Below, piece by piece: positions 57,566 through 63,070 of a stretch of DNA of 64,000 nucleotides. The notes under the pieces are model-generated. The model saw nothing but the letters and a program-made list of their open reading frames with translations, ran no database searches and was not told the origin of the DNA. The translations under genes and the position numbers were made by a program. This DNA comes from Streptomyces sp. NBRC 110611. Lineage in GTDB: Bacteria; Actinomycetota; Actinomycetes; Streptomycetales; Streptomycetaceae. The first letter of the stretch is position 1, and every line of letters starts with the position of its first letter. The stretch covers positions 127,754-191,753 of the forward strand of contig NZ_BBUY01000001.1 of assembly GCF_001590865.1 (NCBI RefSeq). Reading direction: 5' to 3'.

Positions 57566-58634
57566 ACTGGGTGCCGGAGGAGTCGGTGCCGGAGGCCGCT
57601 ACGGCGTGCTCGGCGCCGGTGGTGCCGCGGGAGGCATGGACGTCCGAGACATTCCTGGCGCCGGCCTGCTCCTGCTGCTTGTCACCGCCGGAAGCCTTGC
57701 CGTCCTTGGACTCCTGGCTCCCCGTGGCCTTCCCGTCGCCCGTGCCGTCCTTGCCCTTGCCCTGGGCCTTGTCCTTGGCGGCCTCGGCCTCGTCCAGCCT
57801 GCGGGCCTCGTACTGGCCGACCTTGAGGAACTCACGGAGGGCCTCGTGGGTCTTCTTCCTCAGCGCCTCGGTGGCGGCCTTCTGTACGGCCTTGCCGCCG
57901 ACGCTGTAGATCTGGACCGTGCGCAGCCTGTCGTCCGCGAACTGGGCCATTTCATAGCCGGTTTCCAGGAAGCGCGTACGGTCCTCGGGACTGCCGTCCA
58001 TGACCTCCTGCGCGGCGTCGAAGACCACGCTCCCGGGCTTGGCCTTGGCGACGATGCGCATGATCTCGACGCAGTTGTCCTCGTCGCGGGCCTTGTACTG
58101 GCCGGTCTCGAGGAACTCGCGGAGGGCGGCGTAAGTGTTCTTCTCCAGCGCCTTCTGGGCTTCCCTCTTCACGCCCTTGCCGCCGACGCTCAAGATCCAG
58201 TAGACGCGCAGCCGGTAGTCGGTGGTCTGGGCCTTCTTGTAGCCCACCTCCAGGAAGCGCACGCGGTCCTCGGGGGAGCCGTTCATGGCCTGCTGCGCGG
58301 CTTTGTCGACATTGCTGCCGGGCTCGACCTTGCCGATGATCTTGAGGATGGCAAAGCGGTTGTCCTCGTCGCTCGCACCCTTGGACGAGGAGGCCGACGA
58401 GGACGCCGAGGCCGAGGGCGAGGAAGAGGAAGAGGAGGACGAGGAAGGCGACGAGGCAGAGCCCTCGGACGCCCCGCCCTTCTTCCCGCCCTCCTTCTGT
58501 GCCTCAGATGCCGTGTCCGGAGCCGAGGCCGGCGAGGTCTTGGGGGTGTCAGCGGCGAAGGCCGGAGAAGAGAACAGGACGGCAGGCGCTATCGCGGCAG
58601 TGGCTACTGCCGCGGAGACACGCTTGAGCTTCAA
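57447..58634 (-). CDS. ALF-repeat protein with LAATG anchor
   Basis: A 395-residue exported protein: signal peptide about 1-27, then a Ser-rich stretch (58-90). Residues about 95-285 hold two tandem copies of a roughly 100-residue unit, each with AMNGSPEDR/VMDGSPEDR, FLEVGY or FLETGY, and ALREFLETGQYKA or FLKVGQYEA pieces, the ALF repeat form found in Streptomyces extracellular proteins. A Lys/Gly/Asp stalk precedes LAATGAG, helix and RRR tail. Start TTG 58634 parallels the MKLHR start of its neighbour (MKLKR). Target unknown. Confidence 0.85.
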   Translation of the reverse strand: MKLKRVSAAVATAAIAPAVLFSSPAFAADTPKTSPASAPDTASEAQKEGGKKGGASEGSASSPSSSSSSSSSPSASASSSASSSKGASDEDNRFAILKIIGKVEPGSNVDKAAQQAMNGSPEDRVRFLEVGYKKAQTTDYRLRVYWILSVGGKGVKREAQKALEKNTYAALREFLETGQYKARDEDNCVEIMRIVAKAKPGSVVFDAAQEVMDGSPEDRTRFLETGYEMAQFADDRLRTVQIYSVGGKAVQKAATEALRKKTHEALREFLKVGQYEARRLDEAEAAKDKAQGKGKDGTGDGKATGSQESKDGKASGGDKQQEQAGARNVSDVHASRGTTGAEHAVAASGTDSSGTQLAATGAGSATPWAIGGSAAALTAGAGLVIAARRRTANER

Positions 58635-60306: not shown

Positions 60307-60783
60307 TCACGGCCGGTTCTGCCCTGGCGTTGGCCGACCCGGCTGCGAACCACCGCCTACCGCCAGCTCGGCCCACACGGTCTTTCCGGTGTCGTCCCGG
60401 TCGACGCCCCAGCCACTCGCCAAGACGTCCACCAGCAACAAACCACGCCCGCATTCTTCGTCCTCCTCGGCTTGATTCATCATGGGTAGTTCGTCGCTCG
60501 AGTCGTGCACCTCCAGGCGCAGCCGGCCATCCGTCAACGTGAACCGGACGCCGATCTCCGGGGCGGGGGGAACCTGTGCCTTCACCGCGTTGGTGACCAG
60601 TTCGGATACCAGCAGCTCCGCCAAGCAGGCAAGTTCACCGATGACGTGCCAGATGCCGAGCTGGTGGCGGAGTGCTTCGCGCGCTCGCCTCACGCTGCGG
60701 TAATCGCTGGGAAAGTGGTGCGTCGAGGCGGGCTGTTGGGCGAATGCCAGCCGTTTTGCTGCTGGTCGGGCGCGTGTGGACAT
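60307..60783 (-). CDS. GHKL ATP-binding (anti-sigma/RsbW-like) protein
   Basis: A 158-residue protein of the HATPase_c_2 type common beside XRE-DUF397 pairs. The N-box is LAELLVSELVTNAVKA (Glu/Asn conserved), the G1-like box LRLEVHDSSDELP, and the G2 part ECGRGLLLVDVLASGWGV. Such proteins may be serine kinases like RsbW or just ATP-binding partners. ATG 60783 follows AAGGGA. It is divergent from the XRE gene with a 22-bp palindrome between, as in WhiJ-type clusters. Confidence 0.88.
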   Translation of the reverse strand: MSTRARPAAKRLAFAQQPASTHHFPSDYRSVRRAREALRHQLGIWHVIGELACLAELLVSELVTNAVKAQVPPAPEIGVRFTLTDGRLRLEVHDSSDELPMMNQAEEDEECGRGLLLVDVLASGWGVDRDDTGKTVWAELAVGGGSQPGRPTPGQNRP

Positions 60784-60890
60784 GGCTATCCCTTGGGGAG
60801 CGCGACTGGAGAACCGCCGTGCGGGCGACTGCCGCAGCGTGACGGGTTGGTACTCAAGGTGGCACCGACTGCAGTCCGCTAGCAAGCAAA

Positions 60891-60912
60891 TCTGGGGAAT
60901 TAATTCCCCAGA
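60891..60912. promoter_or_regulatory. Perfect 22-bp palindrome (putative XRE operator)
   Basis: TCTGGGGAATT followed directly by AATTCCCCAGA is fully self-complementary. It sits 79 bp before the XRE start and 108 bp before the ATPase start, so one dimeric regulator could control both. Confidence 0.7.
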
Positions 60913-60990
60913 GTGATAGCCTCAAGATCCATGTTGCAGCACAGAGTTGGGCAACTGGAGACTTGGCTCACCGTGTACGGGAGGTCAGAG

Positions 60991-61875
60991 TTGACAGGTC
61001 AACAGGCGGGTGCGGGGCGGAAGTCCACTGTCCTGGGCAGAAAGCTCGGTGGGGAGTTGCTGAAGCTTCGTGACGCACAAGGGCTGACACAGCCCCAGGC
61101 AGCGCGACACCTGACAGCGACACAAACGAAGATCGCCAAGATAGAGCGTGGTGTCGTGCCGGTCCGCGACCCCGATCTTCATGCGCTGTGTGACTTGTAC
61201 GGCGTGGAGCGTGCCGACGCAACCCGGGATCGTCTGCTCGCTCTGGCGAAGGCGGACCGAGAGCGTCGGCGCGCAAAGGGCTGGTGGGAGGAGTACACCG
61301 ACCTCGGCGACCTGCTGGAGTACATCCAACTGGAGGCCGGGGCTTCCAGCGTTCGGACGTTCCAGAACCAGTTGGTCCCTGGGCTGTTGCAGACGCCCGA
61401 GTACGCCCGTGCGGTGGCCGTAGCGGATGATGTGTGGGAGGACCCGGACCATGTTGATCAGTTCGTTGCGGCGCGTGTTGGCAGACAGGCCCGACTGACG
61501 GATGGCGAGACGCTCGAGTTGTGGGCGGTGCTCTCTGAGGCCGTACTTCGGCAGCAGGTTGGTGGACCGACGGTAATGCAGGCACAGCTGGAACGACTGC
61601 TTGAGGTTTCCGCCATGCCCAATGTCAAACTGCAGGTGTGGCCGTTCGAGGCTGGGGCGCACGCGTCGATGAGCGGACCGTTTGTGATTGTGGGTTTTGA
61701 GGAGCCAGCCTCTACGGACGTCGTCTACGTCGAGACCGCCAGCTCCAGGTTGTGGCTGGAGAGTGAGGAGGATGCGAACCGGCACCGAGGGCTGTTCGAT
61801 AGCGTTCGCAGGAAGGCGCTGTCTCCCGAGGACACCCGCGCCCGGCTGTCCAGCCTGATCAAGGAGAACCGGTGA
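60991..61875 (+). CDS. Scr1/WhiJ-type XRE regulator with DUF5753
   Basis: A 294-residue protein. An XRE helix-turn-helix spans about 14-70 (LGGELLKLRDAQGLTQPQAA, ATQTKIAKIERGVVPV). The DUF5753 sensor domain is about 95-290 (FQNQLVPGLLQTPEYARAVA, LSEAVLRQQVGGPTVMQAQL, VWPFEAGAHASMSGPFVIV). WhiJ and Scr1 relatives control sporulation or antibiotic production. The start is TTG 60991, set by GGGAGG six bases upstream. It overlaps the DUF397 gene by four bases. Confidence 0.9.
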   Translation: MTGQQAGAGRKSTVLGRKLGGELLKLRDAQGLTQPQAARHLTATQTKIAKIERGVVPVRDPDLHALCDLYGVERADATRDRLLALAKADRERRRAKGWWEEYTDLGDLLEYIQLEAGASSVRTFQNQLVPGLLQTPEYARAVAVADDVWEDPDHVDQFVAARVGRQARLTDGETLELWAVLSEAVLRQQVGGPTVMQAQLERLLEVSAMPNVKLQVWPFEAGAHASMSGPFVIVGFEEPASTDVVYVETASSRLWLESEEDANRHRGLFDSVRRKALSPEDTRARLSSLIKENR

Positions 61876-62066
61876 CCACGTTTGAGTTCCACAAGTCCAG
61901 CTACAGCGGTTCCCAAGGCGAGTGCGTGGAAGTGGCCCGGAACGTTCCTGGCGCCACGGCTATACGCGACAGCAAAGATGCGGTGGGCCCGCGTCTCGTC
62001 TTCGGAGCGGGAGCTTGGGGAGCGTTCTTGGAGATGCTGGCGACTGACGAGTTCACAGCTGCCTGA
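61872..62066 (+). CDS. DUF397 small protein
   Basis: A 64-residue protein with the full DUF397 pattern: FHKSSYSGSQGECVEVARN, AIRDSKDAVGPRLVF and WGAFLEML. The GTG start overlaps the XRE stop (GTGA), so translation is coupled. DUF397 proteins are partners of the upstream XRE regulator and are thought to bind it and relieve repression; toxin-antitoxin-like naming also exists. Confidence 0.92.
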   Translation: MTTFEFHKSSYSGSQGECVEVARNVPGATAIRDSKDAVGPRLVFGAGAWGAFLEMLATDEFTAA

Positions 62067-62339: not shown

Positions 62340-62954
62340 TCAGGTGCGGAGGGCGGCCAACTCGGCACTGATCAGAGCCTTGGCTTCATCGCCGTATACG
62401 GCTGATCTCTCCAGGAGGGTGAATGCCTTCTCGTAGGTGTCAATCTGCTTGCGGTCAGTGCACACCGGATCGGTCCCGTACAGTTCGACCTCGACCCGAT
62501 TTCCGTCGAAGATTCCGAACGAGTGGCCGGGGTAGATGTGCCGCTCTGCCCGGTCGGGGATGATGCCCAGTCTCAGGCCAGGAAGGTCAATCGCGTCATG
62601 GAGCCGGGCAAGCTGAGCGCGCATGACCTCCGGGCCGCCAATGTTGGTGCGCAGCGCTTCTTGAGCGAGGACCACGTGGTATGTACGTCCGCCTTGGCCG
62701 ATGAGGCTGGCCCTCGCGGTCCGAGCCTTCACCCCGGCCTCAACATCGTTGGGTGTTCCGTGGAAGTCAACGACCAGACGCAGCATCGCCCGTACGTAAT
62801 CCGGAGTTTGAAGGTGTCCCCAGATAACGTTCGAACAGTATTTCCGAGAGTGTTTAGTGTTCCTTACCAACTCCAAGAAGGCCTCTTGTGTCGGCCCCAT
62901 GCCTTCCTGAAGTAGTGCGTCCCAATCCGTGGGTTCGTTGGGCTGCGTTACCAC
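62340..62954 (-). CDS. DUF5753 domain protein lacking an HTH
   Basis: A 204-residue protein. After about 35 unrelated residues comes a DUF5753 domain: YCSNVIWGHLQTPDYVRAML, LAQEALRTNIGGPEVMRAQL, LRLGIIPDRAERHIYPGHSFGI. These align with LLQTPEYARA and AVLRQQVGGPTVMQAQL of the XRE protein at 60991. No DNA-binding domain is present. GTG 62954 follows GGGAGG by about four bases. It may be a free sensor or antagonist for an XRE protein. Confidence 0.82.
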   Translation of the reverse strand: MVTQPNEPTDWDALLQEGMGPTQEAFLELVRNTKHSRKYCSNVIWGHLQTPDYVRAMLRLVVDFHGTPNDVEAGVKARTARASLIGQGGRTYHVVLAQEALRTNIGGPEVMRAQLARLHDAIDLPGLRLGIIPDRAERHIYPGHSFGIFDGNRVEVELYGTDPVCTDRKQIDTYEKAFTLLERSAVYGDEAKALISAELAALRT

Positions 62955-63070
62955 GCTACCTCCCTCTCCGCCGGGCACTGCTGGCATCAGGAAACCCCAC
63001 ACCGGGCGTGCAGTCGATCACGGCCACCCAGAACGCGCCGTCGCCACTCTTCCTCACCCCCGCTGGAGAG

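Follow-up and report, generated by a model that had tools for sequence, protein, structure and literature searches.

A palindrome between divergent ATPase and WhiJ-type regulator genes of Streptomyces sp. NBRC 110611 is a predicted operator whose half-sites vary with the recognition helix of the regulator

We analyzed the intergenic region between two divergently transcribed genes in a window of Streptomyces sp. NBRC 110611 DNA, the window being the whole 64,000-nucleotide stretch. Domain matches on either side agreed with the earlier note, which had placed a perfect palindrome between an ATPase gene and an XRE-family regulator gene. By its sequence the locus is a cluster of the WhiJ-BldB-AbaA type, in which an XRE-DUF5753 gene is followed by a DUF397 gene and an anti-sigma-like ATPase gene lies nearby; such clusters are known in S. 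coelicolor and S. venezuelae, according to the available text of two papers (PMC10294661, PMC4255298). The features of the locus are as follows.

60307-60783, minus strand: gene for a histidine-kinase-like ATPase of the AbaA/RsbW type, 158 aa from ATG 60783
60856-60861, minus strand: putative -10 element of the ATPase gene, CACCTT, with an 18-bp spacer
60880-60885, minus strand: putative -35 element of the ATPase gene, TTGCTA, a conserved element at a near-fixed distance
60891-60912, no strand: predicted dimeric operator of the XRE protein, TCTGGGGAATTAATTCCCCAGA, from the sequence and its relatives
60894-60909, no strand: conserved 16-bp core, GGGGAATTAATTCCCC, from exact and degenerate genome searches and the 93-locus table
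60934-60939, plus strand: putative -35 element of the XRE gene, TTGCAG, placed from the sequence and from relatives by eye, on weaker evidence than the ATPase promoter
60958-60963, plus strand: putative -10 element of the XRE gene, GAGACT, of the pattern [CG]A[CG]ACT
60979-60984, plus strand: Shine-Dalgarno-like GGGAGG preceding TTG 60991
60991-61875, plus strand: gene for an XRE-DUF5753 (WhiJ-type) regulator of 294 aa with HTH_31 and DUF5753 domains, probable start at TTG 60991, alternative GTG 60913
61872-62066, plus strand: gene for a small DUF397 (BldB-type) protein, PF04149 with an E value of 2e-18, overlapping the XRE stop codon

The ATPase reading frame stays open back to TTG 60885, and the longer frame matched PF13581 with an E value of 3.5e-12; against the NCBIfam model RsbA_anti_sig the ATPase reached 28.5 bits, below the cut-off of 210. 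The XRE protein matched HTH_31 (E 4.1e-13) and scored 239.4 bits over residues 12-292 against NF058600, the model of the Sco1979 family, missing its equivalog cut-off of 350. A defence label for the locus was dropped, PADLOC having returned a single weak HTH match (XRE protein, E 0.0028) and no match for the ATPase or DUF397 proteins. Judging from the sequence, GTG 60913, which abuts the palindrome, is probably not the XRE start, and translation probably begins at TTG 60991, six bases past GGGAGG. With most XRE relatives the alignment begins between query residues 15 and 44; the exceptions are the relative of 82% identity, whose alignment begins at residue 2, and partial matches, three in number, that begin at residues 100, 117 and 139. 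A start at TTG 60991 would separate the palindrome from the downstream XRE gene by about 80 bp. Near the XRE-DUF397 pair, 62340-63002 on the minus strand encodes a DUF5753 protein with no HTH match, and another DUF5753 match begins just outside the window; the region resembles a small cluster of WhiJ-type genes.

A search by sequence for a solved homologue of the XRE protein gave none at an E value of 0.1. In the structure model (mean pLDDT 78.1, with blocks of residues 21-70 at 89-97) the HTH fold was again present, with helices at residues 34-41 and 45-52, the latter being the third helix; the recognition helix begins T44-Q45-T46-K47. The modelled HTH resembles those of the restriction-modification controller (C) proteins C.BclI and C.AhdI among many other XRE-type domains, a likeness of fold only. 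C proteins act as dimers on symmetric operators and both activate and repress. Unlike them, the XRE protein carries a long C-terminal DUF5753 domain, and the stretch that was read showed no restriction-modification genes. That domain (residues about 100-294 of the model) aligned with proteins of the phospholipase D (PLD) fold, namely SauUSI (Z 10.7, rmsd 2.9 over 143 residues), NgoAVII R (Z 9.5, rmsd 4.3 over 150 residues) and Zucchini (Z 9.1, rmsd 3.7 over 130 residues), with Foldseek E values not below 0.001. Since the HxKxxxxD motif is absent from the window's XRE protein, the modelled domain may be a dead PLD fold that serves as a sensor.

The palindrome itself was as previously described: positions 60891-60912 read TCTGGGGAATTAATTCCCCAGA, with identical 11-base halves and the centre AATTAATT. 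The latter occurs once in the window (expected mean 0.00), and 60891-60912 is the only perfect palindrome of at least 20 bp there. One other perfect palindrome of at least 18 bp lies in the window, at 2196-2213 (AGCTGAATATATTCAGCT). Across the window, length by itself is only mildly unusual, a perfect palindrome of at least 22 bp appearing in 9 of 60 first-order Markov copies of the 64-kb sequence; the same test on the 207-bp intergenic region gave one in 3 of 20,000 copies. It is conservation, rather than length, that makes the palindrome more than a chance occurrence.

We also searched the 7.9-Mb genome for further sites. The 18-bp core matched one place with 3 mismatches allowed, and the 16-bp core matched four others, all with exactly 3 mismatches, against two for the reversed control. 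With no other good site, a wider regulon marked by the palindrome motif is unsupported. The genome has 35 DUF5753 matches, and upstream DNA was scanned for 30 of them (the window's own and 29 others); at none of those 29 genes did the two top inverted repeats on the list include the palindrome. Upstream of one of the other DUF5753 genes (L059, C12) is a near-perfect 48-bp inverted repeat whose arm holds CGAACTCAAC, which fits the direct-repeat consensus CGXXCTCAAC given for WhiJ9 in the available text of PMC10294661. Three more WhiJ-type paralogues (L063, L065 and L067) each have inverted repeats of the form GTAG(N8)CTAC upstream and resemble one another in the recognition helix (SSVHVSAVE or SSVHISGVE), and by sequence are possibly a second helix-operator class.

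The exact 16-bp core was present in 2 of 392 Streptomyces genomes, that of the window and one other (G330), in both cases between a divergent ATPase gene and an XRE-DUF397 pair. A degenerate core, GGRGAWWWWWWTCYCC, occurred at 15 places in 14 of the 392 genomes, with 11 places in 10 genomes for its reversed control; 7 of the 15 (the window counted) were flanked by an ATPase gene on one side and a divergent XRE gene on the other, and 8 were not. A DUF397 match was found at 6 of these 7. At the exception, L101 in genome G228, the XRE match spans only 152 residues of a frame of 177 codons, after which there is no DUF397 match; the gene is perhaps a decayed copy still bearing the operator.

Among the 19 named XRE relatives, 18 of them from Streptomyces, sites of this kind were found at 4 loci. 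L017 (82% XRE identity) carries TCTGGAGAATTAATTCCCCAGA, and L018 (72%) carries the 24-bp site CTCCCGGGAATTCATTCCCGGGAG with two central bases unpaired. In L026 and L027 (51%) the site is altered yet symmetric, that of L027 being a perfect palindrome of 34 bp. Different or weaker repeats were seen at the remaining loci of the 19 that were scanned, and L019, whose 91% identity covers residues 117-320 only, had neither an HTH frame at the expected place nor such a site. The site recurs at 46-55% XRE identity in L107, L039 and L003. GGGGAA half-sites were seen in L003 and L012, as expected from their helices, an expectation of which there is no prior written record. The earlier note had said that lack of conservation at orthologous loci would speak against an operator; the palindrome is kept at related loci. 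Its perfection is a property of the window's site and is not conserved, most related sites having at least one mismatched pair.

For a broader comparison, an HTH-only search (E up to 1e-15) returned 89 places in 78 of 362 genomes, two queries giving identical places. These places together with the named relatives made 106 entries, or 93 loci after removal of duplicates with identical HTH and 120 bp of upstream DNA. An ATPase reading frame was divergent upstream in 90 of the 93. Residue 44 was T or Q at 49 loci, and the family pattern was called in 46 of these, doubtfully in L155 and L195; L130, L163 and L194 had no call. The call in L155 fell at the wrong place, the promoter anchor locating its site, and L195 has no convincing site. 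In the T/Q helix classes the general form of the 16-bp core is GGRGANNNNNNTCYCC.

We anchored the loci on a putative ATPase promoter, consisting of TTG, a spacer of 17-18 bp and a YACNNT-like element and independent of the operator letters. It scored at least 5 in 89 of 93 loci, against 1.7% of Markov copies. The window's own promoter, with a score of 5.0, was among the weaker matches, and a consensus scan of 60700-61100 found no sigma-70 promoter. The pattern was also present at two loci with no ATPase frame, L176 and L203, the latter cut by a contig end. Of the 45 called T/Q sites, 43 have their operator centre 14-16 bp from the ATPase -35; the two exceptions are the miscalled L155 and L018, which has no ATPase gene. 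The operator centre would thus lie at about -52 relative to the predicted ATPase start. Symmetry at the anchored offset averaged 6.07 of 9, compared with 3.15-3.73 at nine shifted positions, in 89 loci (L018 and the anchorless L130, L193 and L195 were left out). Both the promoter pattern and the residue-46 rule given below were formed after the loci had been viewed, and the shuffles and shifted positions are controls rather than independent tests.

The earlier note had proposed that the site controls both transcripts, a claim that is half supported. On the ATPase side the operator is distance-locked to the putative promoter, but on the XRE side the putative -10 ([CG]A[CG]ACT), found in 36 of 46 loci, lies anywhere from 29 to 49 bp from the core. 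The L018 locus of Streptomyces sp. SCUT-3 keeps the palindrome while the ATPase neighbour is absent, which suggests use on the XRE side too. A gene resembling an ABC-transporter permease, by reading only, stands in the ATPase's place there (L018:1041-2447, minus strand).

The letters of the half-sites varied with the recognition helix. We named helix classes by the residues at positions 44-47 of the window protein, which is itself TQTK. Sites of the TATK and TQTK classes have the form GGGGAA..TTCCCC, those of TNSK are GGAGACAATTGTCTCC (half-site GGAGACA), those of TAAK are GGRGATAT and those of STTK are GGAGGAATTCCTCC (half-site GGAGGAA), while SVxK proteins go with a weaker, less symmetric GGCAGAAA form. 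The half-site followed residue 46, T occurring with GAA, S with GAC and A mostly with GAT. Taking base -3 of each half-site, the pairing was T with A in 29 of 32, S with C in 31 of 32 and A with T in 19 of 28, so that the rule fits 79 of 94 half-sites, a figure reached by 0 of 10,000 shuffles, though the rule was derived from the same data. Across 47 loci whose residue 44 is T or Q (L018 was added by hand at its called position), both half-sites fitted in 37, one in 5 and neither in 4, and one locus, with P46, had no expectation. The rule failed in both half-sites of L117, L124 and L128, which form one TAAK subgroup, and of L165, and in one half-site of L120, L122, L163, L166 and L203. Among the matched pairs of near relatives listed, 8 of 16 fitted in all four half-sites.

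Operator similarity tracked helix class with a partial r of 0.424 (0 of 2000 permutations, n = 45) after removal of C-terminal and rest-of-HTH identity. Flanking DNA tracked helix class too (partial r 0.252, 0 of 2000). In a column-rank test, the columns of the recognition helix came first, fourth and fifth at the operator. We dropped this rank as decisive evidence, because in a control over 33 columns two of the three helix columns also ranked near the top at four control stretches, and used magnitude alone: mutual information of the helix columns was 0.253 at the operator versus 0.049-0.156 at the controls, 1.6 to 5 times higher. The covariation of the flanks and the high control ranks indicate that a co-inherited block of upstream DNA plus HTH explains part of the covariation.

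Helix classes were scattered on a tree of the C-terminal domain (92 rows, the short protein of L101 being left out), well-supported branches forcing at least 4 changes for TNSK, 4 for TAAK, 6 for TATK and 2 for TQTK, and members in different clades mostly retained the operator of their own helix class. Such a pattern is what either convergence or a recombining operator-HTH cassette would give; we favour the cassette on these sequence data, since the flanks move along. We would put at about even chances a broader proposal, that WhiJ-type proteins of this subfamily carry an exchangeable operator-plus-HTH cassette in which residues 44-46 can be read against the half-site (TxT with GGGGAA, TNS with GGAGACA, TAA with GGRGATA, STT with GGAGGAA and SVx with the weaker GGCAGAAA). 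The cassette would be swapped among C-terminal sensors, with the operator locked upstream of the cluster's own ATPase promoter, making private, insulated AbaA-type switches.

A palindromic operator bound by its own XRE protein is an established kind of site. In the available text of a 2025 study, 9 of 10 palindromes tested upstream of XRE genes were bound by their protein, and SCO1979 of S. coelicolor, whose family model the window protein matches below the equivalog cut-off, is cited as a protein that binds upstream of its own reading frame (PMC12565409). The window resembles those cases in having an XRE gene with a palindrome upstream, and its motif may be among the 223 motif clusters of that study, in whose main text, as available, the term DUF397 does not appear. 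The closest counterpart by gene content is the iosA-whiJ9-bldB9 locus of S. venezuelae. According to the available text, WhiJ9 recognizes three copies of the direct repeat CGXXCTCAAC located 113 bp upstream of the start of iosA; it is required for activating the divergent iosA in a bldB mutant, and apparently lowers its own expression about two-fold (PMC10294661). The XRE and DUF397 families and the divergent layout are common to both loci, and binding of the shared intergenic region by WhiJ9 has a predicted counterpart here. The loci differ in that the divergent gene is iosA there and an ATPase gene here, and in that the window has, in place of direct repeats at 113 bp, a palindrome centred at about -52 of a predicted start; no CGXXCTCAAC with at most one mismatch was found in 60784-60990, the nearest being at 58319 and 61518. 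For XRE-DUF397 pairs, a type II toxin-antitoxin system with an XRE antitoxin and a DUF397 toxin was proposed in the available text of PMC2701414.

We consider it highly probable, from comparison of the loci, that the palindrome is the XRE-DUF5753 protein's own dimeric operator, from which the protein would switch the ATPase promoter and probably act on its own gene. The site is conserved, tends to be symmetric, changes with the recognition helix and has a near-fixed place, and these properties, brought out by comparison of sequences, favour the earlier note's suggestion of an operator for an XRE dimer, which stands as a prediction. Weighing against this reading are the covariation of the flanks, the loci that break the residue-46 rule, the direct repeats reported for WhiJ9, the weak score of the window's own ATPase promoter and the two loci, L176 and L203, that have the promoter pattern but show no ATPase frame. 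The mechanism we propose follows the published WhiJ9 case. An XRE dimer would read two GGGGAAT half-sites through the start of its recognition helix, T44-Q45-T46, and the bound dimer would be centred about 52 bp upstream of the predicted ATPase start, just upstream of the -35. From that position we infer that the XRE protein switches the ATPase promoter, with activation roughly twice as probable as repression; the claim of binding is the stronger of the two. The DUF397 partner would restrain the XRE protein, by analogy with WhiJ9, BldB9/BldB and iosA, and the XRE protein would probably feed back, more weakly, on its own gene.

The same operator might instead serve an XRE protein that represses the two divergent promoters in the classical manner, until the DUF397 protein or a ligand of DUF5753 lifts the repression; this seems to us a possible but doubtful reading. 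If the promoters are correctly predicted, it is disfavoured by a site that lies entirely upstream of the putative ATPase -35 at near-fixed spacing, a position more usual for activators. The 34-bp palindrome of L027, which by eye extends into the putative XRE -35, is more in keeping with repression. The published cases, as far as their available texts go, point in both directions, autoregulation being usual among XRE proteins (PMC12565409) and whiJ9 transcripts rising about two-fold on loss of WhiJ9, whereas WhiJ9 activates iosA (PMC10294661).

We think it unlikely that the upstream DNA and the HTH are inherited or exchanged as a block while another protein acts on the palindrome. Flanks that covary with helix class, and two helix columns that are high at control positions, are what such a block would give, but symmetry is far greater at the operator than at the nine shifted positions, and both mutual information and partial correlation peak there; gene comparison between loci covered ATPase, XRE and DUF397. 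That the palindrome works as RNA, as a hairpin or terminator on the minus strand, is very improbable: a pattern scan lists a terminator-like match on that strand with the tail TTTGCTTGCT, yet the palindrome lies upstream of both predicted transcripts, and the T-rich tail, itself the -35 region, is by eye not conserved in relatives including L039 and L107. Equally long palindromes do arise in Markov copies of the whole window, but their rarity in copies of the intergenic region and the recurrence of the site in L107, L039 and L003 leave a chance palindrome scarcely credible, a reading already contradicted, at the level of sequence, by conservation.

In the open-access literature searched, supplements aside, we did not meet the fixed placement at AbaA-type promoters or the correspondence between helix and operator. 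The WhiJ9 direct repeats were the only mapped WhiJ-type sites found in the available open-access texts, and a 2013 review, in its available part, gave WhiJ targets as being without information at that time. WhiJ-type clusters affect sporulation and antibiotic production. If the correspondence is true, three residues and a promoter position could suffice to predict, for many WhiJ-type regulators, both the DNA site and the gene that they target, and such predicted targets could be checked with short oligonucleotides.
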